A DNA stretch of 64,000 nt from a virus: positions 62,001 through 126,000 of IMG/VR virus record IMGVR_UViG_3300024350_000252. One strand, written 5' to 3'. The notes below the pieces were generated by a model. It saw only the letters and a program-made list of their open reading frames with translations, was not told the origin of the DNA and did not search any database. The translations under genes and the position numbers were made by a program. Within the stretch, counting starts at the first letter, position 1; every line of letters begins with the position of its first letter. Below are positions 16,198-51,300 of this stretch, piece after piece.

Positions 16198-17033
16198 TGA
16201 CAAAAGAATTTACACCAGATCCTGTTATTAACGCAGAACTCAATAGAGAATTTATTAAGCAAGAATACGAACCTTTAGGTAAACCTGTGTTCATCAAGAA
16301 AGAAACAGGGTTAGATGCTATGAACGGCGACGGCGGATATGAACTAGCTAAACTAAGTGATCATTTACGTTTTAAAATGAAACGTGAAAACAAAAGATTC
16401 TGGGCCGGCGATAACATTAGCGATTTCCTAAGCGACGGTGATAAAGAAAAACTTATCGACGAAGCAACTCTAGCATTTGAAAAAGTCTTAGATGTCTTGT
16501 TGATCGATCGCGAAAACGATCCCAATAGTAAAGGCACAGCTCGTCGCCTTGCTAAGATGTACTTTAACGAAATAATGGCAGGAAGATATGACCCAGCACC
16601 AGACGCAACAGCATTTCCCAATGATTCGCAGGACCGTTACGAAGGTATGCTTGTTGTTCGCAGTGAGCTTCGCAGTATGTGTAGCCATCATCATCAACCC
16701 GTTACTGGCGTTGCTTATATTGGCATTATTGCCGCCGAGAAACTTATCGGACTCAGCAAGTACACACGTATCGCACAATGGTGTGCCCGTCGAGGTACTC
16801 TCCAGGAGGAACTGGCTAATGATATTGCTCGGGAGATCGAACGTGCCACAGGCGCCAAAGACCTAGGCGTTTATATTCAAGCCACTCATGGTTGCTGTGA
16901 GAATCGTGGCATCATGGCACACTCTAGTCTAACACAGACTACTGTACTAAAGGGTGCGTTTAAAGATGATCCGGGTACAAAGAAAGAGTTTATGGACAAT
17001 ATTAAACTTCAACAAGAGTTCGCTCCACGATAA
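16197..17033 (+). CDS. folE: GTP cyclohydrolase I (FolE)
   Basis: A 278-residue type I enzyme. Residues 95-258 are the catalytic domain: DPNSKGTARRLAKMYFNE, then Cys162-x2-His165 in MCSHHHQPVTG, GLSKYTRIAQW, and ATHGCCENRGI with Cys233 as third zinc ligand. It converts GTP to dihydroneopterin triphosphate, the entry step to both folate and 7-deazaguanine synthesis. With queD-like and queE in the same phage, the deazaguanine route is the better reading. The N-terminal 90 residues exceed those of E. coli FolE and are unrecognised. Confidence 0.95.
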   Translation: MTKEFTPDPVINAELNREFIKQEYEPLGKPVFIKKETGLDAMNGDGGYELAKLSDHLRFKMKRENKRFWAGDNISDFLSDGDKEKLIDEATLAFEKVLDVLLIDRENDPNSKGTARRLAKMYFNEIMAGRYDPAPDATAFPNDSQDRYEGMLVVRSELRSMCSHHHQPVTGVAYIGIIAAEKLIGLSKYTRIAQWCARRGTLQEELANDIAREIERATGAKDLGVYIQATHGCCENRGIMAHSSLTQTTVLKGAFKDDPGTKKEFMDNIKLQQEFAPR

Positions 17034-30055: not shown

Positions 30056-30636
30056 TTTATAGTGTAACAAGCTGAAATAAAAATCTTTCTATAATACAGA
30101 CTAAAATCATTGGCAAACAATTTAGTAGGATTCATGTCTGTTATCATAAATTCTTTTTCATTGTTTTCATCAAACTCATCAAAATTACAATTAAAAGTCT
30201 GATAGTGTGCGTTAATATCTCCCTTGCCGGTAAGATGTAAATCGAAACTATTCTTAGAAGGATCTGCTTTAGCAGATGGCGGTCCATTGTATTTTACGAT
30301 CATACGAGGTGAATGATCTCTAGTAAAAACAGTGACTACTAGATCAGTAGTTTGATTGTTCCTAGCTGGGGAAAACGGTAATTGAATGAATTGATTAAAA
30401 TCAGGATCATTGTCTAAAGTTTCTTCTATGCTATAGATCCTTATACTATTACCGTCAATATTAACTTTATAGTTGTGTATATTTTTAACACCTCGAGATA
30501 TTTCGTCAAACAATGGCTGGTATTCGTCAGGAACTGTGATTACCTGTAGAGTGGGATCATTGCTTTTAACAATAACAGATTTACTACCTCCTACTATATC
30601 CCCGGTAGTAGTTCTTACTACGATGTTATGTAACAT
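30052..30636 (-). CDS. Hypothetical strand-rich protein between glycosyltransferase genes
   Basis: A 194-residue protein, mostly predicted beta (NIVVRTTTGDIVGGSKSVIV, YKVNIDGNSIRIYSIEE, TDLVVTVFTRDHS). No catalytic motif and no signal peptide. It may be a virion-associated acceptor or scaffold for the neighbouring transferases (inference from position only). Overlaps both neighbours by 4-11 bp. Confidence 0.62.
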   Translation of the reverse strand: MLHNIVVRTTTGDIVGGSKSVIVKSNDPTLQVITVPDEYQPLFDEISRGVKNIHNYKVNIDGNSIRIYSIEETLDNDPDFNQFIQLPFSPARNNQTTDLVVTVFTRDHSPRMIVKYNGPPSAKADPSKNSFDLHLTGKGDINAHYQTFNCNFDEFDENNEKEFMITDMNPTKLFANDFSLYYRKIFISACYTIK

Positions 30637-31486
30637 TTTTAAAATTCTCCATCATGATGTTATGATAGTTACTTATCATATCCTGTGTGAACAGATCTTT
30701 TTGACTGTAATGTATGATATCAGTTTGATTAAAACTACCTATCTTAAATCGATTCAGCTTGTCAAAGTAATAACCAACTTCTTTGCCCATTTTTTGTACA
30801 TTGGTTTTGAACCCTTGTATCCTAGGTTTTAGATGTACAAATCGAGGAAATTCTAAATCATATGAAATAGTATCTTCTAAATCTAATATCTTTGCTGCTA
30901 AAGAAAATGCTTCATCTGTGCCTACAACTTCTGGTATATCTTTATCAAGGAAATAATTTTTAAATTCAGTTGGATAATCTATGATATATCGACCCATGTT
31001 GAAAAATTTTTCAACAATTAATGATGTCTTATCAAAAAATGTATACGCCGAATATAGGATAGGCAATTGATTTTTTTCATATGTTTGTCTATAAAAATTA
31101 TCAGTAACAATATCGTCTCTAAATGTCTTTACCTTATTAGTCACATAAATTTCTGTATTAGAATTTATAAAATAATCAATCCAATGACTAGTATCTCTGA
31201 CCATCAACATATCAGCATCAAGACAGACTGTGTATCGCCAAGGGCTTAACTGATCCATATATGATCTACCATCCCAGTGCTGTTTTTTATCCCAGAATAT
31301 AACTTGATTAAACACAGGACTAGAACTAATGACTGGTATCGTTTCCTTATCATCTGTTATTAATGCTACTTTATCGTATCCTTGTTTCTGTGTGGCTTTT
31401 ATAGATAAAGCCAACAAGTAGGCCATCGACAGATATTCATTGGTGCTAGATTTAGAAATGACTACAAGATATCCAAAATCTTTCAT
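30626..31486 (-). CDS. GT8-like putative glycosyltransferase (B1)
   Basis: A 286-residue protein with a nucleotide-sugar-binding N-terminal half (LVVISKSSTNEYLSMAYLLA, KVALITDD). A metal-binding DxD in VCLDADMLMVRD lies near residue 95, and VVGTDEAFSLAAKI resembles the GT8 acceptor-side motif. The following gene has the same layout. Substrates unknown. It overlaps neighbours by 4-11 bp, so the cluster is one transcription unit. Confidence 0.72.
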   Translation of the reverse strand: MKDFGYLVVISKSSTNEYLSMAYLLALSIKATQKQGYDKVALITDDKETIPVISSSPVFNQVIFWDKKQHWDGRSYMDQLSPWRYTVCLDADMLMVRDTSHWIDYFINSNTEIYVTNKVKTFRDDIVTDNFYRQTYEKNQLPILYSAYTFFDKTSLIVEKFFNMGRYIIDYPTEFKNYFLDKDIPEVVGTDEAFSLAAKILDLEDTISYDLEFPRFVHLKPRIQGFKTNVQKMGKEVGYYFDKLNRFKIGSFNQTDIIHYSQKDLFTQDMISNYHNIMMENFKNVT

Positions 31487-32298
31487 AGAGATAGAATCTC
31501 CTTTTCAAACTTTAGAATGTCTTGTTTTTTCATAATATGAATAGAAGAATTTTTTATCGATAGCAGAGCAGTTTTATCAAATGCGTCTACAGAAAAATGT
31601 AATCCGTGTTCGTTAACATTTATTAATGTGTCAGTTTTTGTCATCCATATGATAGACGGCAATAAATTCGCACCTTCAACAAATCCATTATAAATGTGAT
31701 TGGCTAATGTAAAAGCTATATCATTCCTAAAAATCCTAGGATTAAATTTATGTATATCACTAACAAATCGATATTCTGTTTTGATGTACTTCATTGTATC
31801 GAACACTAATTTTGCTGCCTGATTTTTTGTAAACATCATAGCAGTAGCCCATCTCAATCGCATAGCAGTATCAGATACACGTAGGTCTTCCGGGTGTAAT
31901 TTATTACCTATAAAATCTATCATACTGTCAGTGATCATAAAATCTTCATCATACTCCCAATAGTGAGAATACTGATCATCGAATATTAAAAGGTCACTAT
32001 CTATCAATAGAGTTCTATCGTATGGTGTAAGTTCAAAAGCCAACTGCCTAGAATCATTTAGGAAAAGCTCAGACTTTCCTTCATATATTCTATAATTATT
32101 TTTTTGAGGAGAATCTATTTCTATAATATTATCAAATATAGAATCATCAAAAGTAGAATTTTCTCTACTTTCTTTGTCGGTGATCAAAGATACCGGCACT
32201 GATAATTTTTTCATAGCTAATTTCGCCGATATTTCAGCTAGCTTTAGATAATCTATAGATTGATTATTGTGTCCAAATATCAATATGCCTTTGTTCAT
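31483..32298 (-). CDS. GT8-like putative glycosyltransferase (B2)
   Basis: A 271-residue protein. It has GILIFGHNNQSIDYLKLAEIS at the start, SLITDKES, then TLLIDSDLLIFD (DxD, near residue 100) and a FNPRIFRNDIAFTLANHI segment near the acceptor site. Its order of motifs parallels the adjacent transferase, making a second divergent pair. I see no transmembrane anchor. Acceptor could be a fibre or capsid protein, DNA, or a host surface polymer. Confidence 0.7.
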   Translation of the reverse strand: MNKGILIFGHNNQSIDYLKLAEISAKLAMKKLSVPVSLITDKESRENSTFDDSIFDNIIEIDSPQKNNYRIYEGKSELFLNDSRQLAFELTPYDRTLLIDSDLLIFDDQYSHYWEYDEDFMITDSMIDFIGNKLHPEDLRVSDTAMRLRWATAMMFTKNQAAKLVFDTMKYIKTEYRFVSDIHKFNPRIFRNDIAFTLANHIYNGFVEGANLLPSIIWMTKTDTLINVNEHGLHFSVDAFDKTALLSIKNSSIHIMKKQDILKFEKEILSL

Positions 32299-34065: not shown

Positions 34066-35868
34066 TTATAAAATTATGGCTTCTACTATTTTTATTATTT
34101 CTCTATCATCCGAAGCTAATGCTATAGCGAAATTATCTAGTCTATCTGTAGCTGCTCGAGCTGTACCATCGGCAGCAGCTACTAATCTTTGACCTTTCTT
34201 GATCGGACCAACTACTTTAACTGGTACTCTTCCTTTTAATGCTACCGGCTGTCCTTCAGCTTCACTGTTCATCAGATAAGCTGGATTTTGTGAAATAACT
34301 CCTATAGCTCTATCACCGTCTTGGCAAGCAGTAACTTCGTATTCTCCTCCTACAACCATCACTGTGCCTACTTCATATTCTTTGTCAGTTTTATATATCT
34401 CAGCTAAATCGGCATAGTTAGCACTACTGGCTGTACCATTGAAAAACCTACCGTTAACATCACCGGAAGCAGTTCTTATTACTAGCGTATCACCGGTCTT
34501 GTTAACATCTGCTTGTCTGCCATTTACTGTTTGTGTATCTTTAGCTTGACCGTCAAATAATACAGCCTTGATCGCTCCCGAGGCGCTTCTTATTGGAATA
34601 GAAATAACTCCAGGATTAGCAATATCTAAAGGATCATATGTTCCTAACTTGCTAGCATTTACCGCAGATGTTGCTTGACCACTTAACGATCCTGTAAACT
34701 GTCCATAGAAATTGTCTGCTGTAAATGATCTAGTAGTGGCATTATACGCGGTAGTGCCAGCTGCGTTATTGATATTTCCGGTATGTGTGCCAGTAGTGTT
34801 GCCTGTAACATTACCTGTTAGATTACCAAAAAGAGACTGAGCATAGATATTTTTCCAATGTCTTGACGAAGCTCCAAGATTGATAGTTTCGGTATTTGCT
34901 GGGAATATCGCTTTGGCTGTAGTAATATCGTTAGTATCATACTGCTGCCTAGAGAAAATCATCATGTCATCTCTATCAGTAACTGAAGCAGCATTGCTGA
35001 TACGGAACAGTATTACACCGTTATTTTGATTTTCTATAGTTGGTTGGTTAGCTGTATTGATATAGATACGCAGATCTTTTCTTACAGTTAGATCACCAAG
35101 ACCAACAGTTAGACCTGCGCCAGAGAATGACACAGGATCGGCACCAGTGAATTGTTGTGCTGTACCTCCTGTGCTTCTAATAAAATCTTCTACTGGATGA
35201 CCACCTAGTCTTTCTGAATTACTAGCGGTACCCCAGAATCTATAACCCGAACTGTCACTAACTCCTGTATCTGATACAGAATTTAGTGTAACACCTTTCT
35301 TAATCTGCCTACCAGCTTCTGAAAAACCTGCGATACTATTAGTAGAAGATAAAGTAAAATCGGGATCATTACTAAAAACAGCAGTAGTAAGGCCGCCGAC
35401 CACAGCTTTCAATATAACATGGCTGGTATTATTAACGTCTTTAACTACCTGTGTAACAATCTGTGATGTACCAAAACCTGGTGCGCTCTGTGGTCCAATA
35501 AGCACAAAGCTAGATCCGTTCCATGCGCTCAGCTGATTTGTATTAGTATCAAACCAAAGATCTCCTTGTGAAAGCCCTGCTGGCGGACTGCTGGCTATTT
35601 CAGCACCACTTGCTGACTTAAACTTAGATCCATCATAAAACTTTAATTTCTTTGAGCTAGAATCATACCATATCTGACCGCTTACTGGCTTGCTAGGCTG
35701 TACAGTATTAGCGAAATTTTCCAATAGATATAGGAAATTTTCGTTTTGTATCTGCCCGTAGCCAGTATAATTCTTACCTACGAATTTTAAATCCGTAGAT
35801 GTATCAATAGAACCATCTTCTACATTAGTTAGAAAAGTTCCGTTATATCTATCTACTCTGTAAGTCAT
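34066..35868 (-). CDS. Tail-fibre paralogue 5 with C-terminal autoproteolysis/trimerisation-like domain
   Basis: 600 residues. Residues 1-135 are the module shared by all five fibre proteins: YRVDRYNGTF, FVGKNYTGYGQIQNENFLYLLENF, then two IWYD/LWFD-x-K/QL-x-x-YDG/WNG repeats. A Gly/Thr-rich shaft with GNLTGNVTGNTTGTHTGN repeats follows. The last 115 residues (YADLAEIYKTDKEYEVGTVM, GRVPVKVVGPIKKG) match a C-terminal domain seen in many phage fibres. A late-promoter-like octamer lies 19 bp upstream. Likely a receptor-binding or baseplate-attached fibre. Confidence 0.85.
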   Translation of the reverse strand: MTYRVDRYNGTFLTNVEDGSIDTSTDLKFVGKNYTGYGQIQNENFLYLLENFANTVQPSKPVSGQIWYDSSSKKLKFYDGSKFKSASGAEIASSPPAGLSQGDLWFDTNTNQLSAWNGSSFVLIGPQSAPGFGTSQIVTQVVKDVNNTSHVILKAVVGGLTTAVFSNDPDFTLSSTNSIAGFSEAGRQIKKGVTLNSVSDTGVSDSSGYRFWGTASNSERLGGHPVEDFIRSTGGTAQQFTGADPVSFSGAGLTVGLGDLTVRKDLRIYINTANQPTIENQNNGVILFRISNAASVTDRDDMMIFSRQQYDTNDITTAKAIFPANTETINLGASSRHWKNIYAQSLFGNLTGNVTGNTTGTHTGNINNAAGTTAYNATTRSFTADNFYGQFTGSLSGQATSAVNASKLGTYDPLDIANPGVISIPIRSASGAIKAVLFDGQAKDTQTVNGRQADVNKTGDTLVIRTASGDVNGRFFNGTASSANYADLAEIYKTDKEYEVGTVMVVGGEYEVTACQDGDRAIGVISQNPAYLMNSEAEGQPVALKGRVPVKVVGPIKKGQRLVAAADGTARAATDRLDNFAIALASDDREIIKIVEAIIL

Positions 35869-35896: not shown

Positions 35897-36364
35897 TTAG
35901 AGTTTTTGCTTTTGAGCTAAGATAGCTTGCTCTTGATCTTCATTTATCCATGTATAGGCATCCGGGTTTGACGCATATGCCTGTACCTGTTCTGCGTGTT
36001 GATTTCTAGCAGCATCAATAAACTCTTTCATAGCTATAAATTCGTCTGTTTTTACAGCTGAATTCTTATCTAACATATCTATAATAATATTCAGCTGCTT
36101 GTGTATAGGGTATTCTTTCAAAACAGTGACGTTTGTGTTATATTTTACATAAGATTCTGTAAGGACTGGTTTATCAGACCGAGATCTTACTTCACCTGTG
36201 CTGTAATCGCCATACCAATAATCACCAGCTTCGTCATCTATTTCTACAGTCTTGATAAGAAACTTATCTAGATTTAACTGCGACGAATCTGTATCTTGTG
36301 GAATTTCTCCTATTAGAGTTCCTGTACTTTTTATAAACAATAAATTTCTTTCTACTTTTGCCAT
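35897..36364 (-). CDS. Tail-fibre-associated small protein (possible assembly factor)
   Basis: A 155-residue protein. The beta-rich N-terminal half (NLLFIKSTGTLIGEI, GDYWYGDYSTGEV) is followed by a helical C-terminal half with EFIAMKEFIDAARNQHAEQ. Small proteins between fibre genes are often fibre assembly chaperones; this is only positional evidence. It sits between the 2OG oxygenase and a fibre paralogue with 1-2 bp spacing upstream. Confidence 0.6.
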   Translation of the reverse strand: MAKVERNLLFIKSTGTLIGEIPQDTDSSQLNLDKFLIKTVEIDDEAGDYWYGDYSTGEVRSRSDKPVLTESYVKYNTNVTVLKEYPIHKQLNIIIDMLDKNSAVKTDEFIAMKEFIDAARNQHAEQVQAYASNPDAYTWINEDQEQAILAQKQKL

Positions 36365-36365
36365 A

Positions 36366-36863
36366 TTATCCTACCTTCCCCCATGCTAGAACAAGGCTGT
36401 ATTTAGGCCTTTCATCTTGTTCAATTGTTGTCACTTCGTGCTCTAAGTGTATTGGCATGTCTAACAATGCGCCCGGTTCTTCTTCTACTACGAAACCGTT
36501 ACCATCTTTATCATACCATTTGAAATGAGGACGATCGCTCCTCAAAAAAACTAATTTAAATTTCCAATAACCCCCAACGCTGTCTTTATGTCTTAGCAAA
36601 TAATCACCGGGATCATATCTATTAATAGTGTAACTGGTCACAAAACGTCGATCATCTGGTATGGTTTTAAATATAGCATCTTTAAGATCGCTATCCATAT
36701 TAAAATAGAACAAACTCTTTAGCTGGCTATTTCCATATTGTGTGACAAAATTATGAGCCTCATCTTTTTCCCTTACAGAGAAACGATCTCTGTGCCTTTC
36801 AGCCAGTTCTATGATTTCGTCAACATTAGTGATATAGTTTTTAATCATATTAACCTGAGACAT
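36366..36863 (-). CDS. 2OG-Fe(II) oxygenase (prolyl-4-hydroxylase-like)
   Basis: 165 residues with a double-stranded beta-helix. The iron ligands are His92 and Asp94 in YLLRHKDS and distal His142 in LEHEVTTI; Lys154 or Arg152 just downstream would bind 2-oxoglutarate. The preceding INRYDPGDYLLRH is typical of phage P4H-like enzymes. It overlaps the fibre paralogue upstream by 14 bp, so it is co-expressed with tail fibres. Hydroxylation of a fibre residue is a natural hypothesis; a nucleic-acid substrate is also possible. Confidence 0.85.
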   Translation of the reverse strand: MSQVNMIKNYITNVDEIIELAERHRDRFSVREKDEAHNFVTQYGNSQLKSLFYFNMDSDLKDAIFKTIPDDRRFVTSYTINRYDPGDYLLRHKDSVGGYWKFKLVFLRSDRPHFKWYDKDGNGFVVEEEPGALLDMPIHLEHEVTTIEQDERPKYSLVLAWGKVG

Positions 36864-38631
36864 ATTCCCAACTCGTTTGTGTACTGTTTATTCTATAGAT
36901 CAAAAGATTGTTTCTTGTAGGATTTTGTATAGTTGTAGTCACTGTAACACTTGAAACATAATTGATAGAAATCCATCTAGATGTTGAAGTAGCAACTGTC
37001 GATGATACATTCTGTATCGTACTTGCGATATGTGCTACTTTGTATGAAGGAAACGAAGTAGGCGGACATAGTTCGTTAAGGACAGATACTACTGAGCCAG
37101 CGGCTACACCTGTTATATCAAGTCCTCTAGTATCTAAGCTGAAAAACAATGGTATCTGAGATACTTGGGCATCAACATAACCTTTGTTAGCTGCGTGTAA
37201 ACTATTAGTAGGAGCACCAGGTAAAGTGATAGCACCAGTCATCACACCACCGGATTTAGGTAAAGCATACGGATCGATGATATCGATATTAGCTGTACCG
37301 TCGAATAATACTCCGTTGATGTATTTTCCGTTAATTAACCTAGATGCTGTATCAGCATTTCCGACTAATGAACCATAAAACTGTTTGGTACCATTGTTAA
37401 AAGCCATGCTATCATCGTTGGCGTAGAGATCTCCCTTAACATCACCTACCAATTTATCTATTAATGTAAGAGTATTAGCATTGATATTTGTGATATTGGC
37501 ATTTAATGATGATACTGTGTTAGTAGTTGCATCAAAAATCAGTGTATTATCAGCAGCTCTTACATTACCTTTATGGGTTCCTACTGTTGTACCTGTAAAT
37601 TGTTTAAGTACATTGTCTATCATCAATGTAGCATCACTGGCATATACATTACCTGTGATGTTACCAGTTACTTCACCATATATGTTAGCTGCGAATAGAT
37701 TCCTATATTTGAATAAAGAAGTACCTATATCGTAGGCGTTGTTTCTACCAGGAGTTAACCCTGCGGCAGAAAATACAACAACATCATTATTATCAGTACC
37801 AACTGTGATACGAACTTTGATATTATTACCAAGTGTGTTTTGTAGTACAGGAACATTGGTATTTTCGACAAATACCTTTAAATCAGCATCATTACCTACT
37901 GTGAAACCAGCATCATCGAAGGTAGATCCTGATCCTGTTCTCAACACAAAATCAGCGATAGGATGTCCTGCTAATTTGATAGAATCACTAGATGTACCCC
38001 AAAATCTAAAATTAGAAGTAGTTACTCCACTTATTGGTGTATCTTTGATCGTGATACCTTGGTTTATGCGTGAAAATCCCGGAATAACTGTAATGTTACC
38101 AATATCAAACGTATCATTGCTCATGATACCTATAACATTACTATCTGATATAATTTTAATAACAGGATGCGCTGTATTTCCATTGTCTCTAATAACATCA
38201 GATCTCAGTCTAGTTTCACCAAAACCGGGTGCTTGATCCGGACCAATAAGGACATAATTAGCACCATCCCAAACATTCATCTGTTTGTTAGTTTCATCAA
38301 ACCACAAAGCACCTTTATCTACTGCTGTTAGCCCTAAAGGTGCAGTAGTGCTGCTGTTCGAAATAGGCATCGTTCTCCACGCTGCGCTAGAATCATAAAA
38401 TTTTATCTTGTTTGTGGATTCGTCATACCAGATCTGTCCAATAACCGGACGCCTTGGTTGTGTTGTACCTCTAAAATTTTCTAGTAGATGTAGAAAGTTT
38501 TCATTTTCTATCGTACCATATCCAGCATAGTTCTTTCCAATAAATTTAATATCACTAGAAGAACTATCGACAGATTGATCTTTTACTTCTACAAAAAATG
38601 TTCCGTTATATCTATAAACTTGATATGCCAT
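36850..38631 (-). CDS. Tail-fibre paralogue 4
   Basis: 593 residues. N-terminal module as in its neighbours (YQVYRYNGTF, FIGKNYAGYGTIENENFLHLLENF, IWYDESTNKIKFYDSS, LWFDETNKQMNVWDG). A shaft with GEVTGNITGNVYASD-type and GTHKGNV repeats follows, with a conserved ANKGYVDAQVS segment near residue 500 and a strand-rich tip. It lacks a collar domain. The last 14 bp overlap the oxygenase gene. Confidence 0.82.
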   Translation of the reverse strand: MAYQVYRYNGTFFVEVKDQSVDSSSSDIKFIGKNYAGYGTIENENFLHLLENFRGTTQPRRPVIGQIWYDESTNKIKFYDSSAAWRTMPISNSSTTAPLGLTAVDKGALWFDETNKQMNVWDGANYVLIGPDQAPGFGETRLRSDVIRDNGNTAHPVIKIISDSNVIGIMSNDTFDIGNITVIPGFSRINQGITIKDTPISGVTTSNFRFWGTSSDSIKLAGHPIADFVLRTGSGSTFDDAGFTVGNDADLKVFVENTNVPVLQNTLGNNIKVRITVGTDNNDVVVFSAAGLTPGRNNAYDIGTSLFKYRNLFAANIYGEVTGNITGNVYASDATLMIDNVLKQFTGTTVGTHKGNVRAADNTLIFDATTNTVSSLNANITNINANTLTLIDKLVGDVKGDLYANDDSMAFNNGTKQFYGSLVGNADTASRLINGKYINGVLFDGTANIDIIDPYALPKSGGVMTGAITLPGAPTNSLHAANKGYVDAQVSQIPLFFSLDTRGLDITGVAAGSVVSVLNELCPPTSFPSYKVAHIASTIQNVSSTVATSTSRWISINYVSSVTVTTTIQNPTRNNLLIYRINSTQTSWEYVSG

Positions 38632-38642: not shown

Positions 38643-40463
38643 TTATGTCTTAATACATGGTAGCAATGCTACGTTTCTTGGTCTTGTTTCTGTGTTGCCA
38701 CCCGGCTCAGTCCTGCCTAAGGCATAACGAGCTCCGTAATCTGCGTCTTCGTCATACATGAAATACTGATCATCTGGATAAGGATAGTTTTTATTACCAT
38801 TTCTATCTGTCCAATCTGATGCTCCATCATCTTCAAACCCATATACATCTTTGAAATCGTGTGTATGTGGTCCCACATCTGCGGACTGTCTTGTACCTAA
38901 CACTCGACCAGTGTCTACTCCACGTCCTATGTCTAACCCTCTAATAAACTCACCACGTAGATCTGGAAGGTTAAAGGTGTTTACACCGTCGCCCGATCCC
39001 CATATGGTACTAATAGCTGCGAATAAATTAGGATAATCGGTCCTAGATACTGCGGTACCATCACAGATCAACCACCCAGTTGGCGGAACTGCCATAGCAA
39101 AATATGCCACTTGACCAGTAGTACCATTAGGTGCGCTGATCCAAGTGCCGCCTGTAGAAGTTAAAACATTTCCCTGTGTCCCTGGGGCTACAAAATTAAC
39201 ATTACCGGCCCCTGCGCCTAGTAAAACATTGCCTGTAGTTAATGAACTTCTTCCAGTTCCGCCATGGGGTACTGATAGTATATTTGTAACTTGATTGCTA
39301 AGGTCTATGACAGGTGTGCCCCACACTGGAGGTTGATTAGCTCCTTGGGATTTTAAAATATATCCTATCGTGCCTGCTGATCCATTAGTTACTAATTGGT
39401 CGCTTATCGTTATAGAAGTAAATGTTGCTGTACTAGGAGTTATATTTCCCACCACACCGTTGTGCTGACCTGTAGTATTACCTGTTAGATTACCTTGTAC
39501 ATCTCCTTGTAGATCACCAGTAAATCCAAGACTAGCAGATACACTAGTACCGGTTACAGCACCTTGTACTGGTCCATAATGTGTACCTGTGGTATTACCT
39601 GTTAGATCTGCGGTTATCCTGCTAGCAGAAAAATTACCTAGAGAATCTCTAGACACTATCGTGTCATCTACATTGTTTGCTGTGGCATTGATAGACCAAG
39701 TAATTTCTGAACTACCATCAAATCTAGAACCCTGTATAAATTGACTAGCGTTGATACCGTATGGTGTTAGAGCTTTGATCGTTATGTTTGCGGTGCCATC
39801 AAATGCTACACCATTAATATTTTTAGGTGCTGCTAATTTAGTAGCGGTATCAGCATTACCGACAACGTCGCCGCGCAATTTACTTGAAGAACTGACTGTT
39901 ATACCCTTACTCAACTGATCGAATCCAGGTACAGCATCTAATGCGTTGATGGTAAAATCTCTTTCTGCTGTTATCGCTACCACTGTATCATTTAATGTAG
40001 ACAAAATAACTGGATGATATGATCCAGTAGTATCTCTTAATTTTGTAGATATATTTCTTGTTTTTCCGTAACCTGCGACACTTTCTGCTCCAACAAAAAC
40101 AAATTGAGTTCCGTCATAGACATAAAATTTATTGTCTGTTGTATCTAACCATCCATCGCCGGGCGCAGCTTCTGTTGGTTCTGTTGCGCTGATAACGGTA
40201 TTACCAACTATAGTCCAAGTAGGACCTGTGTTTACCCTCAGTCTCTTAGTCGATGCATCGTACCAAATTTGTCCTACTAGTGCCTTTGGTGGAGCATTAT
40301 TTCCTGCGAAGTTTTCTAACAGGAATACAAAATTTTCATTTTGTATTTCTCCATACCCGGCAAAGTTTTTACCTATAAGGCCAATGCTGGTACTTCGATC
40401 TAATGTACCATCATCTAGTTGGACTAGTTTATCTCCGTTGTATTTGTTAATCTGATATGCCAT
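38643..40463 (-). CDS. Tail-fibre paralogue 3 with phage tail collar domain
   Basis: 606 residues. The shared N-terminal module (YQINKYNGDKLVQL, LIGKNFAGYGEIQNENFVFLL, IWYDASTKRLRV) comes first. A Gly/Thr-rich shaft with GDLQGDVQGNLTGNTTGQHN repeats follows. The C terminus has a tail-collar domain (AVPPTGWLICDGTAVSRTDYP, FNLPDLRGEFIRGLD), then TRPRNVALLPCIK, a fibre-tip ending seen in many phages. Collar-type tips are usually trimeric receptor-binding ends. Confidence 0.9.
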   Translation of the reverse strand: MAYQINKYNGDKLVQLDDGTLDRSTSIGLIGKNFAGYGEIQNENFVFLLENFAGNNAPPKALVGQIWYDASTKRLRVNTGPTWTIVGNTVISATEPTEAAPGDGWLDTTDNKFYVYDGTQFVFVGAESVAGYGKTRNISTKLRDTTGSYHPVILSTLNDTVVAITAERDFTINALDAVPGFDQLSKGITVSSSSKLRGDVVGNADTATKLAAPKNINGVAFDGTANITIKALTPYGINASQFIQGSRFDGSSEITWSINATANNVDDTIVSRDSLGNFSASRITADLTGNTTGTHYGPVQGAVTGTSVSASLGFTGDLQGDVQGNLTGNTTGQHNGVVGNITPSTATFTSITISDQLVTNGSAGTIGYILKSQGANQPPVWGTPVIDLSNQVTNILSVPHGGTGRSSLTTGNVLLGAGAGNVNFVAPGTQGNVLTSTGGTWISAPNGTTGQVAYFAMAVPPTGWLICDGTAVSRTDYPNLFAAISTIWGSGDGVNTFNLPDLRGEFIRGLDIGRGVDTGRVLGTRQSADVGPHTHDFKDVYGFEDDGASDWTDRNGNKNYPYPDDQYFMYDEDADYGARYALGRTEPGGNTETRPRNVALLPCIKT

Positions 40464-40483: not shown

Positions 40484-42460
40484 TTAAGTCCTATCAAAAG
40501 TTGAGATAGCTAAATCGTAAGGATTAGGTTCTTCAACTAGAGGAGTTAACTGAGTCCAAGTAAGTGATCCGCCCGGAGCCGAAAGTTGGAACTCCCAGTA
40601 ACCTCTTACAATGTACATTCTTGGTGGTTGTTTATTTTCTGGAACAGTACCAGATGCTGAACTGCCTGATACTCCAAGCGTCACCGGTACCGATGAAACA
40701 TTTTCTAAGTAGTATCTATAAGTGGCTATTCTAGCTATAGTACCCGGATCATACTCTGCCGGAGGTGCTATCTGTGCTAAAATACTAGCCATCTTGGTCT
40801 GTGTTATCACAGTTTCAGGTGTTGGATAGCCTCCAAAAATATCAGTTATATCCATCGACAATGGTATGTTTCTTGTTCTTACAAGATTATTAACGTATTT
40901 TTTATTTGTGGCTTCTGACAGTTCTGTCGAACTTAGCAATGAAGAAGATTCTGTTGTCTGTCTAGTACCTACACTATCTTCATTAGTGTTATGTATGCCC
41001 ACTATCTTCACATTAGAACCAATAACGTTGATATCACCTAACGGTTCTATTTCTAGATTAGTTGGAACAGCCGGATCGTTATTTGAGTATAATCCTGTTC
41101 TTCCGTTATTGGCTATCCTATTATTGTTTAAAGTGATATTGTCTATTACAGCCTGTATCTGAGCACCAAAATTAGATAGACCAGGAGCATTAATAACAGC
41201 AGAAGTTAGTGTTATGCCGGCGCCTGTATCTTCAATAATCGGAATGCCGTTGATACTAATAGTTCTATTAGAACCATTTACACTAATATTTTCACTAAAA
41301 TTCCAAGTATCAGTAAGATTATCCCATAGTATTGTATGGTTTGTTGTACCTTTTAAAATTAGACCACCGCCATCGGCATAAGCATCTGTGGATACTCCTC
41401 CAGACACATTAGCTAATTCTATATTCCTATCATCTACTTTTAATGTTGTACTTTCAACTGTGGTAGTTGTACCTTGTACATCAAGATTTCCAACTATGGT
41501 AACATTACCACCTATAGTGGTAATACTCGATGGGTTACCTGGCATTAACTCTAAAGTATCTACGTTGCCAGATACAAAAGTATTGTATGGTTGTATTTCT
41601 ATAAAAGAAATGTTACTATTGTTCTTGTTTAATTTTACAGAAAACTTTTTATTATTGGCAATGTTTCTAATATAGATATCACCGAAGCCGTCAACTCCTA
41701 ATTGACCTTGCGGACCATCACCCCATCTTATTCCGCCATTATTACTGACTGTTAATACTTCTGTAAAAATATTACCTTGATCTTTTCTAGCAAAATAGAT
41801 AGAATTGATATTACCAAGAGAATCAGAATTAGAAGCGGTTCCATGCCATTTTACATCCGAGTTAATCGGGTTGAAACCAATCTTAACTGATGTTTGATTA
41901 GCACCGGTGCTATCTTTAAAATTGGGAATTTGATTTCTAGTAGTAAATTCTGTACTACTGAAAAATCCCTGTAATGAATTTGAAACATATACAGCAGCTA
42001 TAGTTCTGTTTCTTCTAGACGAATCTTCAATAGTTTCTATTTTTACACCACTTAAACTCTGAGCGGTGCTATAAGCTGGGCCTATCAAAACATCGGCCAA
42101 TCCGGTAAAGAAATATAGTTGATTGTCACTAGTGTTGTACCAAAAGTCACCTGTACCAACATCTAACGGCCTTGCCGCAGAAAGTGCTGTGCTACCTACT
42201 GAACGCCATTGAGTTCCTGAGTAAACTTTTATTCTATTTTCAGTAGTGTCATACCATAACTGCCCTATCAACGGTGATGCAGGCGAAGATCCTGCGCTGG
42301 CAAAATTTTCTAAAATTTGTACAAAATTTTCGTTGATGTACTGACCAAAGCCGCTGAAATTTTTTCCTACCAATGTAATAGAAGTTGACGCAGTATCTAT
42401 CTGCCCGTCAGCTACTGTTGCTATCGTCGTTCCGTCTGTTTTAGTTAAGATGTATGACAT
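40484..42460 (-). CDS. Tail-fibre paralogue 2
   Basis: 658 residues. It has the same N-terminal module (LVGKNFSGFGQYINENFVQILENF, LWYDTTENRIKVYSGTQW, FWYNTSDNQLYFFTG). The middle contains GNVTIVGNLDVQGTTTTVESTTLKVDDRNIE-like content, a pattern typical of structural fibre shafts, and a helical ATNKKYVNNLV. The C terminus is a strand-rich head without a collar motif. Tip specificity therefore differs from paralogues 1 and 3. Confidence 0.82.
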   Translation of the reverse strand: MSYILTKTDGTTIATVADGQIDTASTSITLVGKNFSGFGQYINENFVQILENFASAGSSPASPLIGQLWYDTTENRIKVYSGTQWRSVGSTALSAARPLDVGTGDFWYNTSDNQLYFFTGLADVLIGPAYSTAQSLSGVKIETIEDSSRRNRTIAAVYVSNSLQGFFSSTEFTTRNQIPNFKDSTGANQTSVKIGFNPINSDVKWHGTASNSDSLGNINSIYFARKDQGNIFTEVLTVSNNGGIRWGDGPQGQLGVDGFGDIYIRNIANNKKFSVKLNKNNSNISFIEIQPYNTFVSGNVDTLELMPGNPSSITTIGGNVTIVGNLDVQGTTTTVESTTLKVDDRNIELANVSGGVSTDAYADGGGLILKGTTNHTILWDNLTDTWNFSENISVNGSNRTISINGIPIIEDTGAGITLTSAVINAPGLSNFGAQIQAVIDNITLNNNRIANNGRTGLYSNNDPAVPTNLEIEPLGDINVIGSNVKIVGIHNTNEDSVGTRQTTESSSLLSSTELSEATNKKYVNNLVRTRNIPLSMDITDIFGGYPTPETVITQTKMASILAQIAPPAEYDPGTIARIATYRYYLENVSSVPVTLGVSGSSASGTVPENKQPPRMYIVRGYWEFQLSAPGGSLTWTQLTPLVEEPNPYDLAISTFDRT

Positions 42461-42462
42461 TA

Positions 42463-44655
42463 TTATTGAGTTCCATCGTTACTTGGTCTACCAGATCTAA
42501 TAATATAATTCATAGTCATGAATGGATTCATTACGTTAAATGGTCTACCTATTTGTGAATCAACCAAACCAGAAACACGTTTATCTTCATTAGCAATTCT
42601 TACTAGTCCAGTAGATGCCATAGCTTGGCCGCCGCCAATAACTGTGCCTGCTTTGATCCTTGAGTTTGCTTGTCCCGAACCACCAATTAATGTAGTTGGT
42701 CCAAAATCTGTCGGAACCGATGTGTTTTCGTTAATAACATAAAATTGCGATCCCGAAGTTTGGTTGTCTGCTCTTCTTCCTTTTAAATCATGGTCATGAT
42801 CTGGAATATTATATGGTTCTATGACATACTGATCTTTACCACTAGTGCCTCCTAGAACACTAGCTTTAGAATCGTTGACTAGAGGAGTAACCAAAGCACC
42901 GCCACCAGCACTAGGGCTGCTAGTACCGCCCGGATAAGGTACAGTCAGCGCATTATACATATCCTGCTTACCTAACACTAATCTTCCACGAAGATCCGGC
43001 AATCTAAAAGTATTTCCTTTTGGCGATCCTAGCAGCGGAGTAGTACCGTTGTATATGGTTCCTACTACAGCAGCTAAATCTCTATATCTATATTCTTCTA
43101 CTTCTGATCCGTCGCAGAACAAATAACCTGTTGGACAAACTGGTCCAGCAAATGCTAATATTGTTCCAATAGGCACGTTAGCATCTCCTAAGAATGTGTC
43201 TCTAGTGATTTTTCTTAGACCTTGACCTGCTCTATAAATCAACATTTCGTCGTTGACTTGATAATTTCCTACAGATGCCTTATTAGAAATAATGTCAGAT
43301 GTTAGTGTAGTTGTAAAGACTTTATTAAGGTTACCTGTACCGTTAAATGCCACAACGTTACTAGACACGTCACCTTCCAATTTAAAATTAGTAGCCGATC
43401 TTAAGCTGGTAGCTGAATTTGAGTTTCCATCGATATTACCACTAACTGTACCTGTAATTGTATCAGCTACTACATTTCTAGCATAAATGGTAGCATATCT
43501 ATTAGTCGCTTCACCTATTGTTTCTGATGCTGTACGTGGTTTGATGGATTTTGTTCTAAGTGTACCGTTTTGTATTTCAACATCACCACCTACCCAAATG
43601 TTTTTCTTAACTGCCATACCACCCAGTGTCTGTATAGATCCACTGTCAAGATTAGTAGCATCTATTTCAGAACCGTTAGTGATAGTGCCTACTAGATTAA
43701 AATCTCCTACAAGATCTAATTGCTTTGTAGGATTAAGATTATTAATACCTACTCTATTTTCTACCACACGTACAATAGGTGTTCCAACACCAAAAGATCC
43801 TGTTCTACTAGGCTGTATGTCTATGCTGGCACCGGGTGTAGCATTATAGATTACAGCATTAGCCGATGTTACACTGATGTTTAAATTACCATTAGCACCA
43901 ACGTATATACCCGCATCATCTCTAACGTTAAACTGTGCTTGTACAGTTTGAATAGTATCTGTTCTAACAAAACTTGTAGCCGGAACTATAGTGGTTCCGT
44001 ATAAAAGACTATCGGCGCTAGTAGCTGTACCAACGAATCTAGGAGACACAGTAGTACTAGATATATCAGTTCTAGTTGTTAGATTGACACCAGTTTGTAT
44101 ACTGGTAAAGCCCTGTATGGTAACTTTAGGTGTAAAGGTATCTTTACTGATGATAGCAACAGGAATATCGTCTGTATACATGACCACAACTGATCTAGGA
44201 TTGTTGTCAATATCAAATAAACTTTCAACTTGCGGTCCAGTTTTAGTTCCTGAACTGTATTGAGGTCCCACCAAAACCCAGGATGTACCTGCCCACAGAT
44301 ATAATTGTTGTGTACTGGCGTTTACCCATAGATCACCAATAGTAGCACCGGATGGTTCATTGACTGCTGTCTGGATGTTACTAGTTGATTTCCAGCTAAT
44401 ACCATCAAATACAAATAATTTATTGTTACCGGAATCATACCAAAGCTGTCCTGTAACAGCTTTAGCTACATCTGGAGCACTATCGCTAGCAAAATTTTCT
44501 AATAAGTGTAATAGGTCTTCTGAAATAATCTTGGCGTACCCGACTTGGTTCCTACCAGGAAAAGACAAGCTAGTATCTTGATTAGTAGTATTATCTTGTA
44601 CTACCAATGGCTCAGGATGTAGCGTGGAATTTGTGAAATTTACGTTATATGACAT
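42463..44655 (-). CDS. Tail-fibre paralogue 1 with phage tail collar domain
   Basis: 730 residues, the longest of the five. The N-terminal module (FPGRNQVGYAKIISEDLLHLLENF, LWYDSGNNKLFVFDGISW, LWVNASTQQLYLWAG) is the most divergent. After the shaft, VPIGTILAFAGPVCPTGYLFCDGSE and FRLPDLRGRLVLGK form a collar domain. A Gly/Ser-rich tip containing NIPDHDHDL and a final FMTMNYIIRSG follow. The layout matches T4-like short-fibre or gp12-type collar proteins. It is transcribed directly after the small structural gene (3-bp gap). Confidence 0.9.
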   Translation of the reverse strand: MSYNVNFTNSTLHPEPLVVQDNTTNQDTSLSFPGRNQVGYAKIISEDLLHLLENFASDSAPDVAKAVTGQLWYDSGNNKLFVFDGISWKSTSNIQTAVNEPSGATIGDLWVNASTQQLYLWAGTSWVLVGPQYSSGTKTGPQVESLFDIDNNPRSVVVMYTDDIPVAIISKDTFTPKVTIQGFTSIQTGVNLTTRTDISSTTVSPRFVGTATSADSLLYGTTIVPATSFVRTDTIQTVQAQFNVRDDAGIYVGANGNLNISVTSANAVIYNATPGASIDIQPSRTGSFGVGTPIVRVVENRVGINNLNPTKQLDLVGDFNLVGTITNGSEIDATNLDSGSIQTLGGMAVKKNIWVGGDVEIQNGTLRTKSIKPRTASETIGEATNRYATIYARNVVADTITGTVSGNIDGNSNSATSLRSATNFKLEGDVSSNVVAFNGTGNLNKVFTTTLTSDIISNKASVGNYQVNDEMLIYRAGQGLRKITRDTFLGDANVPIGTILAFAGPVCPTGYLFCDGSEVEEYRYRDLAAVVGTIYNGTTPLLGSPKGNTFRLPDLRGRLVLGKQDMYNALTVPYPGGTSSPSAGGGALVTPLVNDSKASVLGGTSGKDQYVIEPYNIPDHDHDLKGRRADNQTSGSQFYVINENTSVPTDFGPTTLIGGSGQANSRIKAGTVIGGGQAMASTGLVRIANEDKRVSGLVDSQIGRPFNVMNPFMTMNYIIRSGRPSNDGTQ

Positions 44656-45310: not shown

Positions 45311-45318
45311 TATTTATT
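45311..45318 (-). promoter_or_regulatory. Late-promoter-like octamer AATAAATA
   Basis: AATAAATA on the minus strand overlaps the stop of the giant gene. It is 5 bp from the first ATG of the next gene, but 26 bp from the internal ATG at 45285. If it is a functional late promoter, the internal start would be used from that message. Confidence 0.35.
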
Positions 45319-48300
45319 ATGGCAAATTTGTAGTCTTCTGCTGTAGGAACGTCACTATCGAAGTTTTGCTATTGCTTAATCCTTCTCCGGTAGTAGCTGA
45401 ACTGTTACCAACATCATACCATAGCTTGCCGGTTCTCTTAACCACTGTGATCCTAGTTGCTGCTTCTACAGCCGAAGTTAATCTTATATATGGCGTTGAT
45501 CCATCTACAGAAAATTCAGCTTCTACTAGCACATCGCCCGCAGGGCTATGTGAACCTACAGTTTGATCGTATACGTAGACAGGATCTTTGTTCAATCTGC
45601 GTCCAGCCACAAATACTTCGATAGTATCGCATGGTCCGTACTCTTCAGGTATACTGTCTACCGGCCATTCTTTCCTGTATCCTGTTCCATCTACAGCAGA
45701 TTTAGCAGGAATAAAAGTTAATGGCCCAATAAGCAAAGAAGTTCCGTCTGATACAAAATCTTCTTTTTCTTGAGAATCCTTGTAAGGAATAGCTTCTGTA
45801 TAACCTGTGATTACTACTTCAGTTCCCGCACTAAACAATGGCGTTACAGAAGTACCAAACATACCTCTTCTTAATCCCGTTAGACGATTACCATCTATAG
45901 CTAGATATTGTATTTTTTCTCCGCCTATAGTCACTATACCCGGCTGATCAAATTTGGGTACAGGAAGTGCTGTAGCATCTGTCAGTGTCATAGATTCGTC
46001 ATAGTAATTTAAATTTTCTACCAATTTGATGTTAGACAATGAGTATCTGCTGTAATAATTTTTGTTCAACACATCTTTAAATATTTCAAACGATACCGGT
46101 TCACGATAAATCATATCAGATCCGCTGATTATTTCCACTACATCAGTAGAGGTTGTAATAAATGAAGGATTGAATATAATTTCGTTTCTATTTCTTGATA
46201 GATAGTAATCTATATCCTGTGTAGCTCTTTCACCATTTACATATACCCATACATAAGAAACTCCTAAAACAGGTTTTTCTAGAGAATAAGCTAATTCGCC
46301 ACCTTTAAAGATGTCTCTGGTTAGATCCATCGTAGTATACTGTTCAAACCACTTGACGTTTAAAACATCACCTAATTGTAGATTTAAATCTGTCCTAAAA
46401 ACAATATTGTTATTTTTGATTTCATAGTTGCTATTAGAATAATCTTCTATCCTAATAATATCTCCTATGTCATATTTTCCAAACAGAGTCACTGTGTTGT
46501 CTTCAGCTGTGAACCCATAATCGATACCAAATATCAATAAATTGTCATTTACAAAAACTTTAACTTGGCTATCGATAATATCTCCTGGGTTTCTAAAAGG
46601 ATCTAAACCTATCTTTATAGAATCGTTACCTGAATAGATTTCTATAACAGTATCAACAGTGGTTAGTAAGTTACCGTTTCTTTCTACAAGAACGTTACTT
46701 GTAGGTGATCCTCCTAGATTGATAAATGATTCTAAAGGATATATTCTTTGTACGATATCAGTTACTGTTATAGTTTGATCATTGACTTTGATCAAAGGAG
46801 AATATGATCCCGATTCAGCAGATAGAACAACGATAGAAATCTTTCTGTTAACTTCCGGAGGATTACCAAACTCTACTAGAGTTTGATCTAGATCATTTAC
46901 CTGTCCTTTGCTGTTAACGAATCCGGCATCAACGATCTGTCCATCAACAGTAGCATAGATAGATCCAGTTTCAAAATATGATGCTCCTGTTAGATAATAT
47001 CTTGTTAGTCCGTCTGCTATAAATTCTTTATAGTCAAGAATTTCTGTACCACCTAACGCCATGGATACAACTTCTATTGTAGAACCAGCAGGTGGTAAAA
47101 CTCCGACGAATCTAACTTGATTAGTTTCAAAAGATATTGTATAATCTAGGCCGTTATCTTTTTTGACTTTATCGACATAAACTGTAACAGATTTTCTCTC
47201 AGTTACTTTCTGACCTATTTCATAGAGATCTGTCTGACCGTCTCCAAAATAAATTCTAGTTAATAGCGCAGGAGCTCCTGCTCTATCAGTATGGAACACT
47301 TTGATACTAAGTGTATCTAAAACCTGTCCCGGAACATTTTCCTCTGGAGCAGGTACTTGTTCTGGACTGATAAATTTTTGTCCGTCTAATACTATCTCAG
47401 AAGCAGTTTTACCTGTCGCTGTAGAGTATGCTCCACCTATATTTGTTAGATCCCCGCCAGATATAGCCGTATCGATATTTCTACCTACTAGTGCTACAGT
47501 ACCATCACTTTCGATCGGTCTGAATATCAGTGTATCATCTTTATCGATTTGTACTCCCGGAGGAATCGTTACAGCTATAGTAGATCCATCACCAACAAAT
47601 GTCTGCATCACAGCATGTTCGGGAGCTTCTTTCAAGCCGTTTATCTGTATCGTGCTTCCATCATAATAGTCAAAGAAAGGATCGTCTAATCTGACAGAAT
47701 TGTATTCTAATTTCTTTCTTAGATAGATTGTTATTTCTTTACCTAGAGGTGGCGGTTCAGGTAGATAGAATGTTCTATTAACACCATCAGCTGCTACATA
47801 AAAATCAGTGTTCATGTCGCCGGAGCTGTCCCATCCTTCTAATCCCCATGGCACAGCATCCCAACCAGCACCTACATCAAACATTGATCCTTGTACTATA
47901 ACTCCGCCAAAGTCTATGCCGGTGACTAGCTGTGAATAATCGCTGATTATTTCGCCATCTATTGTGTTCTTTTCTACACCTAACATACCAGATGTTGGTT
48001 GATAATACTTGTCTATCCTATTAAGAGCATCAAGTATTTCGTCATTCTTTTCGTAATGAACTGTAACTGTAGCACCCTGTGGCGGAGCTGCGTTCAATAA
48101 TAATTGACCAGTAAGAACTTCCGTTCCAGAAATATTTGTCTTGAAAATCTTGATCAAATATTGGCTGTTTAACAACTTGGCACCGTCTGTGCCTGCTGCT
48201 GTATTAGGATGTTTTAAAAATACAGCAATCTTAGATTTGTCTGTAGTGGGTGGATACTTTAGTGTGAAAGTATTTTTAGTACCAGGACATACAAATGATT

Positions 48301-51300
48301 CTGTTTCTAAGAAATTGTTTCCTAGATTTTTAAACTTCGGAGTCTTTGAATATCTATCAAACTTGATAGACATATCAAATGTACGAGCTTTAGATTGTCC
48401 TATGATGGCTACAGCTTTAGCAGAATTTTCTATCACTGTACCAACACCGCCAACTAATGTTACTGTAGGAGCAGAAGTATATCCTGATCCATGCTTGATC
48501 ATTCTTATATGTGTTACTACGCCGCTAGAAACAAATGCTTGTGCTTCTGCTCCATTACCACCACCGCCTTCGATGACTACCTTAGGTACGCTGGTATAGT
48601 TCTTTCCGCTGTATGTCAATACGATGTCTTTGACTACAAAAGCATGATTGTCTTTCCAGAATTTCCAAGGGTACTGATCGATTTCCAATCTTGTAGAATC
48701 AACAGGAACTATGCTTTGTGAATTAATATCAAAGACTGGAGGTAAATCAAAATCACTAATCGGTGAAGATGCTAGCTCTTGCCCTAAGTACCTACTGGTA
48801 TATTTTCTAATTTTGGTTCTATAAGGTTTAACTTCTTCGATATATTTCTGATAGCTAGAAAGATTATCGCTCTTATAGTTGATCCTATTGCTAAAATAAC
48901 CAACGTTGTGTGTTGCGTTCAAGAAACTGGTCTTGAATGCCCAATCGACATAAAGTTGTTCGCTGAATATGTAATGTATAGAAACAAAGAACAACTTGTT
49001 CCATTCGTTACTAAGTTCATCGATGAATATATTTTCTTTTACCGCTTTTAGAATATTTCTAAACTCGATAGAGAACGAAGTATCATATTTGTTACTATCA
49101 TAGCTTTGAGTTAAATCGTATCCTGTAGATTCCGCAGCAGTATTGTAGAACTTATTAACTATCTGGATAGTTCCATTTTTACGACCAACTAAACGATATT
49201 TGTTTTGTAAATCAGTAGCTATCGGATCGACTGTTTCAAAAACTGCCCAACCGCCAGAACCATATTCATCCACTCTTACTAGATCTCCTATCTCTACAGT
49301 CAGACCTGATTCTCTATAAAGTCCAGGAATAGTATATTTGATTCTAGAAGTATTGCTAAATCCCGACTTCCAATAGTCGACAGGAATCCAGAATTTAGTG
49401 GTATCATATGCTTGTGTTGCTGTCTTATAAAATGTTTCTGTTTTATCATCCCAACTATAGATAGCCCAATAGCCGTTTGAGTTCACATCGCTTTCGATCA
49501 ATACAGAAAACGGTCTAACATTTAGTCTAGCATTGATATACTTGGTGCCGCTATTTTCAATGATGACACCAGTCACCACGCCTAATTTATTAATAACTGT
49601 TTTAATCTTTGCGCCGGTGCCTGACCCATCTATTTCGACATAAGGTGGTACTCTATATCCTCGACCACCATCTATAACATCAACAGAAGTTATTTTTCCG
49701 TTAGCTATATTAGCTGACAACAAAGCCGGTTTTATTTTAGCAGTAGCTATAGTAGATAATTCTTTATAGCTGGCAAAAGATTGATCATACAGATTTAAAT
49801 TAGATTTAGGTAATGGTGCTGTTAAATTTAAATATTCATAAGAAATAGAATCTGCCAATGGATAACGAGAAAGTATATTGTTAATATAATCTACTGTTAT
49901 CTGTACCGCTTTATTTCTGTTAATAAACATAGACTGTCTAGGTCTATTGGCTATTCCGTATTTTGATTTTTCTGGAAGATCTTTATCAGGAACTGATCTA
50001 CCTAGAATATCTTCACCAACAAGACTGTCGATCCACTTTCTTTCTATATCTTCAACAGGATATTCATCAGAACCTTCTGTCAACAGAGTATATTCGTTGT
50101 GGACTAGATTTATGTTTTTATCAGTTTTATAGAATTGTATATTCAATAAAAATTCATCAGTATTGATAGAACCTTGTAAGTTATACAAAGAAATTTTATC
50201 AACATCAGTTATAGCAGCAAACGGAATTCCTGCTGTCGTTGGATTAGCAATGTAATTTGCTATAACTCCTGCGCTATTTGTTTTAGTAGAATTATTAGGC
50301 AGAGTATTTTTGCTTCTTACCCAATAATAGTAAACATTATATAATACTTCGCCGGTTATTGAGTCTAGTTTTTGCTTGTAAGAATAGTTTGAATCATCAG
50401 GATACAATGGTGTCCCGCTGATACCTTCTTCAAAACCAGCAGTAGTGCCAGTCATAGCTGCCCACTCGCTAGGCCTATAAATGGTTTCTACCCATTCGTA
50501 AACATCGATGCTAGCACCATATGCTAGTGAACCCCAATTAGCTGTCTTATAAACAAAATCATTTTGTTCATAATCAAGATACTTTGCGGTAGATGTTCTC
50601 CACCATATCTTACCAACATTATCATCCATCCATGCTTGGCCGGCGTCGATAGCATTATCAACAGTACCAGTAGAATAAACAGCAGGATCATAAGATGTTT
50701 TATAATCTATATCTTGATCAGCTATAGAAAGTATCTTTCCTTTAAATGGATCTATTATATCAAGGTCAGCAATCTTGCGATTATTAACAGCATCGTATAT
50801 GGCTAGATTTTTTAATTTGTCTATATCTATGCCGTTTGTTTGCTGCCTAATCACTGTCCAAGGTTTTACTCCTGCTTTCTTAGTAAATTTTTGTATCCTA
50901 CCAATCCTAGTAGTAGCAAAAGCAGGATCTAATGATAGATATTTTGGTGATCCAACAATGATCGAATCATTGGATGCTGAAAGAGACTTACCAAAGTCTT
51001 CATTGGTGTTAAGGCCTTCATCAAATATTTCTGAAAGAACAAACTTACCTACATACTTGTCAAACACATAGACTTTACCAGTTTTTCCTTGTGAATCTTT
51101 GAAGTTGGTAACAAAACGATCAAATCTAGTATCATTAGCATCAAATGTTGTAGTTTTATAACTTTCAGCACCTTCAGCTGAAATAGCTATAGTTTGATTA
51201 TCAGGAGTGATACAGATATTTGAACCGAATCTTTCGTTAGGATCTAGTTGACCGCTATCTAGTTTTTGTATCAGTTTATATGTTCCGTTTTTGTTTTCAA

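Follow-up and report, generated by a model that had tools for sequence, protein, structure and literature searches.

We analysed a 64,000-nucleotide stretch of viral DNA (IMG/VR record IMGVR_UViG_3300024350_000252, positions 62,001 to 126,000; hereafter the window) and found that a gene of its fibre cluster, predicted to encode a small 2-oxoglutarate (2OG)- and Fe(II)-dependent oxygenase (OXY), has a constant companion, a gene of the PHROG 13209 family, which was absent from the preliminary description of this DNA. The reading that we favour, at a probability of about 60%, is that the two products would act in the oxidation of a tail fibre at the time of its assembly, the 13209 protein serving as adaptor or chaperone and the enzyme not being kept in the virion. 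On this view, OXY would be a catalytically active protein hydroxylase, dependent on Fe(II) and 2-oxoglutarate, which works inside the infected cell while tails are being assembled; it would be made together with the 13209 protein and would probably bind it. The latter, as substrate adaptor or fibre chaperone, would bind both fibre and oxygenase; the pair would hydroxylate a tail fibre, or oxidise it in another way, the likeliest site being the tip domain of the product of the gene just upstream of OXY, either ahead of the folding and mounting of the fibre or in the course of them; and OXY would then be left out of the virion. We base this model on the invariant iron triad, the predicted fold, the purifying selection, the constant linkage with 13209 whichever of the two genes comes first, and the fibre or tail neighbourhood found in three phage groups; from these we infer catalysis, a physical complex, the substrate, the residue, and a benefit to folding, stability or adsorption. 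The novelty lies in the OXY-13209 cassette and not in the enzyme class, and the constant partner and the connection to phage phiKZ make the finding more interesting than first thought. The features concerned, all on the minus strand, are as follows.

30626..31486, minus strand: GT286, glycosyltransferase-like by eye; PHROG 1903 (unknown function) at E 0.002; linkage to OXY not constant
31483..32298, minus strand: GT271, glycosyltransferase-like by eye, with a DxD-type motif; matched by no profile; linkage to OXY not constant
34066..35868, minus strand: F600, fibre lying after g155; PHROG tail fiber at E 4.2e-12; alternative candidate substrate
35897..36364, minus strand: g155, PHROG 13209 family, 155 aa; predicted beta-sheet N-terminal half and helical C-terminal half; constant neighbour of OXY
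36366..36863, minus strand: OXY, predicted small 2OG-Fe(II) oxygenase, 165 aa; iron triad H92/D94/H142; K154 putative 2OG ligand
36850..36863, minus strand: 14-bp overlap of fibre stop and OXY start; putative translational coupling
36850..38631, minus strand: F593, fibre-like, directly upstream of OXY; PHROG tail fiber/virion structural; candidate substrate (C-terminal tip)
38643..40463, minus strand: F606, fibre-like from its N-terminal similarity, by eye
40484..42460, minus strand: F658, fibre-like, with a tip like that of F593, by eye
42463..44655, minus strand: F730, fibre- or collar-like, by eye

The oxygenase gene had previously been placed at 36366-36863, with no strand given, and had been said to overlap a fibre gene by 14 bp. 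An open reading frame starting with ATG occupies exactly these coordinates on the minus strand, the plus-strand translation being interrupted by stops, and the upstream fibre frame (36850..38631) does end 14 bp inside it. For comparison, 83 homologous IMG/VR loci were fetched (one search kept the best 80 of the 110 found), which together with the window and the window's own record made 85 stretches, among which 56 different OXY sequences occur. In every one of the 83 stretches that show an upstream frame, its end is overlapped by OXY, by 1-95 bases, values which are upper bounds as the longest start was taken. Between the OXY genes of two relatives (L022 and L023), dN was 0.058 and dS 0.75 (dN/dS about 0.08), so that the frame is not a chance one and, as judged from these substitution rates, is under purifying selection; against five relatives, the window OXY gave a dN of 0.15-0.23, with dS saturated in all five.

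The His92-Asp94...His142 triad, earlier described as intact, is correctly numbered, and its three residues, together with K154, are invariant in 15 of 15 aligned sequences (the window protein and 14 relatives 45-75% identical to it). K154 sits at the place of the 2OG-binding Arg/Lys of 2OG oxygenases and presumably binds the C5 carboxylate of 2OG. The AlphaFold2 model of OXY (mean pLDDT 86.9) has the double-stranded beta-helix fold of the Fe(II)/2OG superfamily, and its Foldseek matches, with E values down to 9.6e-9, include AlkB, PHD2 and bacterial prolyl hydroxylase. When compared with viral models, OXY had as its second match a 150-aa Psa21 protein, presumably the phiKZ-type homologue considering that phage and length are the same, and several cyanophage oxygenases were also present. 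At the sequence level, Pfam, NCBIfam and PDB searches gave no confident family for OXY: PF13640 (2OG-FeII_Oxy_3) reached 14.7 bits (E 0.063), short of its gathering cut-off of 27 bits, and matched one of the 15 OXY members at E<=0.1; the NCBIfam profiles gave nothing; and calmodulin matches were rejected as a short EF-hand-like stretch (DKDGNGF). The best PHROG was phrog_2696, of unknown function (E 0.0051). A tblastn search of 50,697 phage records with the window OXY returned nothing at 1e-5 and seven weak records at E up to 10, and the 52 stretches of a genome contigs collection that matched a pattern included no relative. Since Pfam and NCBIfam are unable to reach the protein, the oxygenase label rests on motif, predicted fold and a profile match to the oxygenases of phiKZ/Otago-type phages (see below); on these grounds the original assignment was borne out, OXY being by modelled fold and motif a 2OG-Fe(II) oxygenase of predicted catalysis.

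With respect to the substrate, VIA-align scores of the OXY model were tied (Z 15.2 for AlkB, 15.0 for PHD2 and 14.9 for Pseudomonas putida P4H), so that the fold is no guide as to whether protein or nucleic acid is the substrate. The prolyl hydroxylases (P. putida P4H, 4J25/4IW3; PHD2/EGLN1; viral vCPH, 5C5T) act on proline and share with OXY 12-18% identity and its fold, to which the likeness is confined; the likeness to AlkB (3BKZ and others; 12% identity) is likewise one of fold, while, unlike AlkB, the window OXY has no nucleic-acid gene context around it. We consider it very unlikely that OXY serves DNA repair or AlkB/TET-like oxidation of DNA bases. AlkB is among its best structural matches, and OXY shares its superfamily with PHROG 61 and the cyanophage 2OG-Fe(II) oxygenases, for which two reports propose a DNA repair role, with homologues lying next to uvsX/uvsY (PMC2984593, PMC9146016), nine copies in the latter not being located between uvsY and uvsW; however, the protein hydroxylases PHD2 and P4H match the OXY fold equally well, and in the groups examined the OXY-13209 pair has genes for fibres, tail or baseplate as its neighbours and no annotated repair gene like uvsX/uvsY next to it. 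A few genes on from the pair, the annotation gives a 'holliday junction resolvase' in Psa21 and a 'nucleic acid binding protein' in RVTF4. The P. putida prolyl hydroxylase found among the top Foldseek matches was solved with EF-Tu, which leaves host proteins possible as OXY substrates; a hydroxylase directed at the host, with EF-Tu or a ribosomal protein as a possible target, is nevertheless improbable given the position in a fibre operon and the constant partner gene. Elsewhere, the superfamily is linked, in a paper on a Microcystis virus, to phycobiliprotein and secondary metabolite production (PMC12542629), and the Phold paper mentions that EGLN3-like proteins are numerous among phages, above all those infecting marine bacteria (PMC12774648).

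The partner gene, g155, matches PHROG 13209 at E 1.2e-8, and its homologue is the very next gene after OXY in 82 of the 82 stretches with at least 600 bases following OXY (near-duplicates included). Using two 13209 profiles and a phiKZ/Otago OXY profile, 102 IMG/VR loci were fetched, many on contigs already used and some twice, which is to say not 100 new phages; both genes were present in 100 of them, on the same strand and at most 12 bases apart, the order being OXY-13209 in 75 and 13209-OXY in 25. In the two others (L110 and L176), the contig end falls where OXY should be. Comparison of window-type with phiKZ/Otago-type profiles gave hhalign probabilities of 98.8% for 13209 (E 5e-17) and 97.3% for OXY (E 2.6e-11), and HMM searches agreed in both directions. 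As the pair survives both phage distance and a swapped gene order, it probably works as a unit. A confident predicted structure was obtained for 13209 (pLDDT 90.4); compared as a whole-protein model, it had no Foldseek match at E<=0.001 (best 0.52) and a VIA-align score of at most Z 6.1, on a helical part, which does not make the fold new. Searches with 25 members of the 13209 family gave none of the tail-fibre-assembly Pfam families at E<=1, phiKZ gp136 matched SUMO and fusion chains in phmmer (E 0.001-0.01), and tblastn of g155 against the same 50,697 phage records gave nothing at 1e-2. The constant linkage would also be expected if 13209 were itself the substrate, or if OXY were mainly a structural co-chaperone, the pair folding or trimerising fibres with catalysis secondary or directed at 13209; against this, which we regard as unlikely, stands the invariance of the iron triad, needless in a purely structural role.

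The connection to known phages was made through a divergent relative (L020), whose OXY reached Astolliot by tblastn at E 1e-5 and alone matched PHROG 2297 (E 0.002), to which the window OXY gave no match at E<=0.01. Two Pseudomonas phages, Milchi and Astolliot (the latter an Otagovirus), and the phiKZ-like Psa21 and RVTF4 have a PHROG 13209 gene immediately ahead of one for a small oxygenase, which is recorded as a hypothetical protein or as 'DNA endonuclease'; one further record (Churi) labels the homologue '2OG-Fe II oxygenase'. PF13640 was matched by RVTF4 (4e-5) and Psa21 (6.6e-4), both below cut-off, and PHROG 61 (2OG-Fe(II) oxygenase) by Astolliot at 7.4e-8 and by Psa21 and RVTF4 at 0.003-0.004 or better, with no match of the window OXY to PHROG 61 at E<=0.01. 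For Psa21, 72 phage records matched the oxygenase and 72 matched the 13209 protein, the two lists being compared by total alone. The HxD...H triad is also present in six of six phiKZ/Otago oxygenases. PHROG 2297, with phiKZ gp137, resembles OXY as a homologous small oxygenase by profile (about 22-24% identity in profile alignments), with the HxD...H...R pattern, an adjacent PHROG 13209 gene and a tail or structural neighbourhood; it differs in the Arg that stands before the last strand where the window OXY has Lys, so that the putative 2OG-ligand place is basic in both (K154 in the window type, Arg in the phiKZ/Otago set), and in the arrangement of its cassette, where gp136 (13209) comes first, then gp137 (OXY), then a PHROG 14616 gene. 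This third gene (L093:12426-12914 and homologues) lies beside the pair in phiKZ/Otago-type phages; it aligns with the oxygenase in the distal-His region alone (hhalign 31%, E 5e-4; also 1.4%), the HxD not being conserved, which is suggestive only of an oxygenase-like protein without the HxD motif, that is, an inactive second oxygenase. None of the 20 window proteins scanned matched PHROG 14616, and F600 follows g155 instead.

Phage phiKZ gp137 (NC_004629; L093:11935-12417) carries the RefSeq name 'DNA endonuclease', yet it has the 2OG-oxygenase motif and profile homology to OXY; the name is probably wrong, as far as motif and profiles can tell, and its likely source is the name of PHROG 2297. 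The same label stands on many phiKZ-like records and is called into question there as well.

The genes ahead of gp136-gp137 in phiKZ, gp131-135, are on record as coding for tail, tail tip or virion structural proteins, and those ahead of the corresponding pair gp221-222 in 201phi2-1, gp216-220, as coding for paralogues that mass spectrometry detected in the virion; that gp131-135 and gp216-220 would be fibres is our own suggestion. The 201phi2-1 record has no mass-spectrometry mark on gp221, gp222 and gp223, nor on gp225, the missing mark on gp221-223 being negative evidence from a single record. A pair standing behind virion genes and lacking such a mark is in keeping with an assembly factor that the finished virion does not retain. 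Baseplate genes precede the pair in Astolliot and Milchi, the latter also having tail collar fiber genes, and a tail, structural or fibre neighbourhood is common to three phage groups. The portal of the window phage is of the T4 type (PF07230, E 4.3e-109). phiKZ belongs to a different lineage from such a phage. A broader proposal, to which we would give slightly less than an even chance, is that OXY and 13209 form a dedicated fibre-hydroxylation machine common to T4-like and phiKZ-like myophages, in which the adaptor would deliver nascent tips to the oxygenase to yield an oxidised receptor-binding domain, and which would have been kept intact though gene order and fibres changed.

The window genes around the pair owe the name of fibre to the PHROG matches of F593 and F600 and to tblastn, in which annotated tail fibre proteins of PA5oct-like phages match the N-terminus of F600; F606, F658 and F730 were included for their similar N-termini. 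The C-terminus of F600 matched the Peptidase_G2 intramolecular-chaperone domain (PF11962) at E 8.2e-5, below cut-off. A fibre like F600 usually follows g155 among the stretches; it was rejected as a constant mark of the pair because Agrobacterium phage Atu_ph07 and Sinorhizobium phage Phosso, as judged within the fetched stretches, have the fibre and neither OXY nor 13209. Downstream of this fibre, Phosso (L088:10618-17742) carries an oxidoreductase gene and three radical SAM genes, which may belong to a different pathway, for fibre modification or for sugars.

As for the fibre directly upstream of OXY, its ending is of one tip type in 47 of 83 window-type stretches and of other types in the rest. 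Across 33 distinct upstream fibres sharing this ending, mean pairwise identity was 0.61 over the initial 50 residues and 0.62 over the final 43, against 0.28-0.36 for residues 201-400 and 0.51-0.53 for residues 401-550, tip conservation being inflated since the fibres were chosen for their shared ending and their last codons overlap the OXY start; the OXY proteins of the same loci were 0.63 identical. A conserved fibre tip beside OXY is consistent, as far as these alignments go, with its being the hydroxylation target. Tips were then compared by profile across groups, using 47 SG-type and 15 WS-type window rows (WS chosen by hand), all four Otago-type IMG/VR rows plus Astolliot (the gene directly upstream of 13209), and 10 of 11 phiKZ-type second-upstream fibres (all but L191; here the gene lies two positions upstream of 13209); the gp135 type and the tips of L017, L018, L020 and L084 were set aside. 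SG-type and WS-type tips are related (E 5e-7), and the fibres near the pair in the Otago and phiKZ sets have a common C-terminal domain (E 1e-6), in which Gly-Asn-Gly is mostly present; between window-type and Otago/phiKZ fibres, the profile comparison detected no tip homology. The upstream tip as a single homologous domain in all groups was accordingly rejected, and, with the endings of the upstream frames also varied, one common target site is not established.

The preliminary description had further proposed that hydroxylation would provide an attachment site for glycosyltransferases encoded downstream. Its fibre or tail role is supported, with the overlap in 83 of 83 stretches and tail genes by the pair in two other groups; its glycosylation part is not. 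Genes of the GT271/GT286 types were found downstream in 55 of the 69 stretches having at least 5.5 kb there, representing 40 distinct OXY sequences; in the other 14 (11 of 51 distinct OXY sequences) the window's own GT types were not found, one of these (L083) being a weak case where a long gene fills the space. Pfam and NCBIfam gave no glycosyltransferase support for GT271 or GT286, nor did PDB for GT286. The annotation of phiKZ, 201phi2-1, Astolliot, Milchi, RVTF4 and Psa21 places no glycosyltransferase next to the pair, and GT271/GT286 profiles found nothing in the stretches of these six phages but one chance-level match (E 0.76), an absence which covers these two types near the pair and not other kinds or the rest of the genomes. 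That OXY hydroxylates a fibre to create an O-glycosylation site for the downstream genes is therefore unlikely, in spite of the frequent presence of such genes in the window type.

In the literature within reach (titles and the beginnings of abstracts, most subscription journals lying outside it), hydroxylation of a bacteriophage tail fibre was not found described, and the main text of a jumbo phage review (PMC13282480) contains no word beginning with 'hydroxyl' or 'oxygenase'. If the favoured reading is true, phage receptor-binding fibres can need enzymatic oxidation, and fibre maturation would be tied to host oxygen, iron and 2-oxoglutarate, which would be relevant to the making of recombinant fibres. 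An anonymous gene of an uncultured phage thereby leads to a question testable in phiKZ, a standard laboratory phage.

Several further observations concern the window and its record. Promoter-like sites were as frequent as in shuffled sequence (47 versus 48.4), and terminator-like sites numbered 14 against 7.7 (sd 3.0) in shuffles, the latter forming no part of the argument on OXY. Genes of the psbA type (PF00124) were not found in the phage record, which may be a fragment. About 18-20 kb along the record, outside the window, lies a second 2OG oxygenase (L085:1177-1746; PF13640 E 1.6e-8), with another frame, oxygenase-like by eye, two genes on from it (L085:2110-2685). Within the window, a GTP cyclohydrolase family gene is found at 16197-17033 on the plus strand (PHROG 2197, E 1.5e-44), and a single frame of 4941 aa (45317-60142, minus strand) separates the fibre cluster from a baseplate wedge gene (60145-63654).
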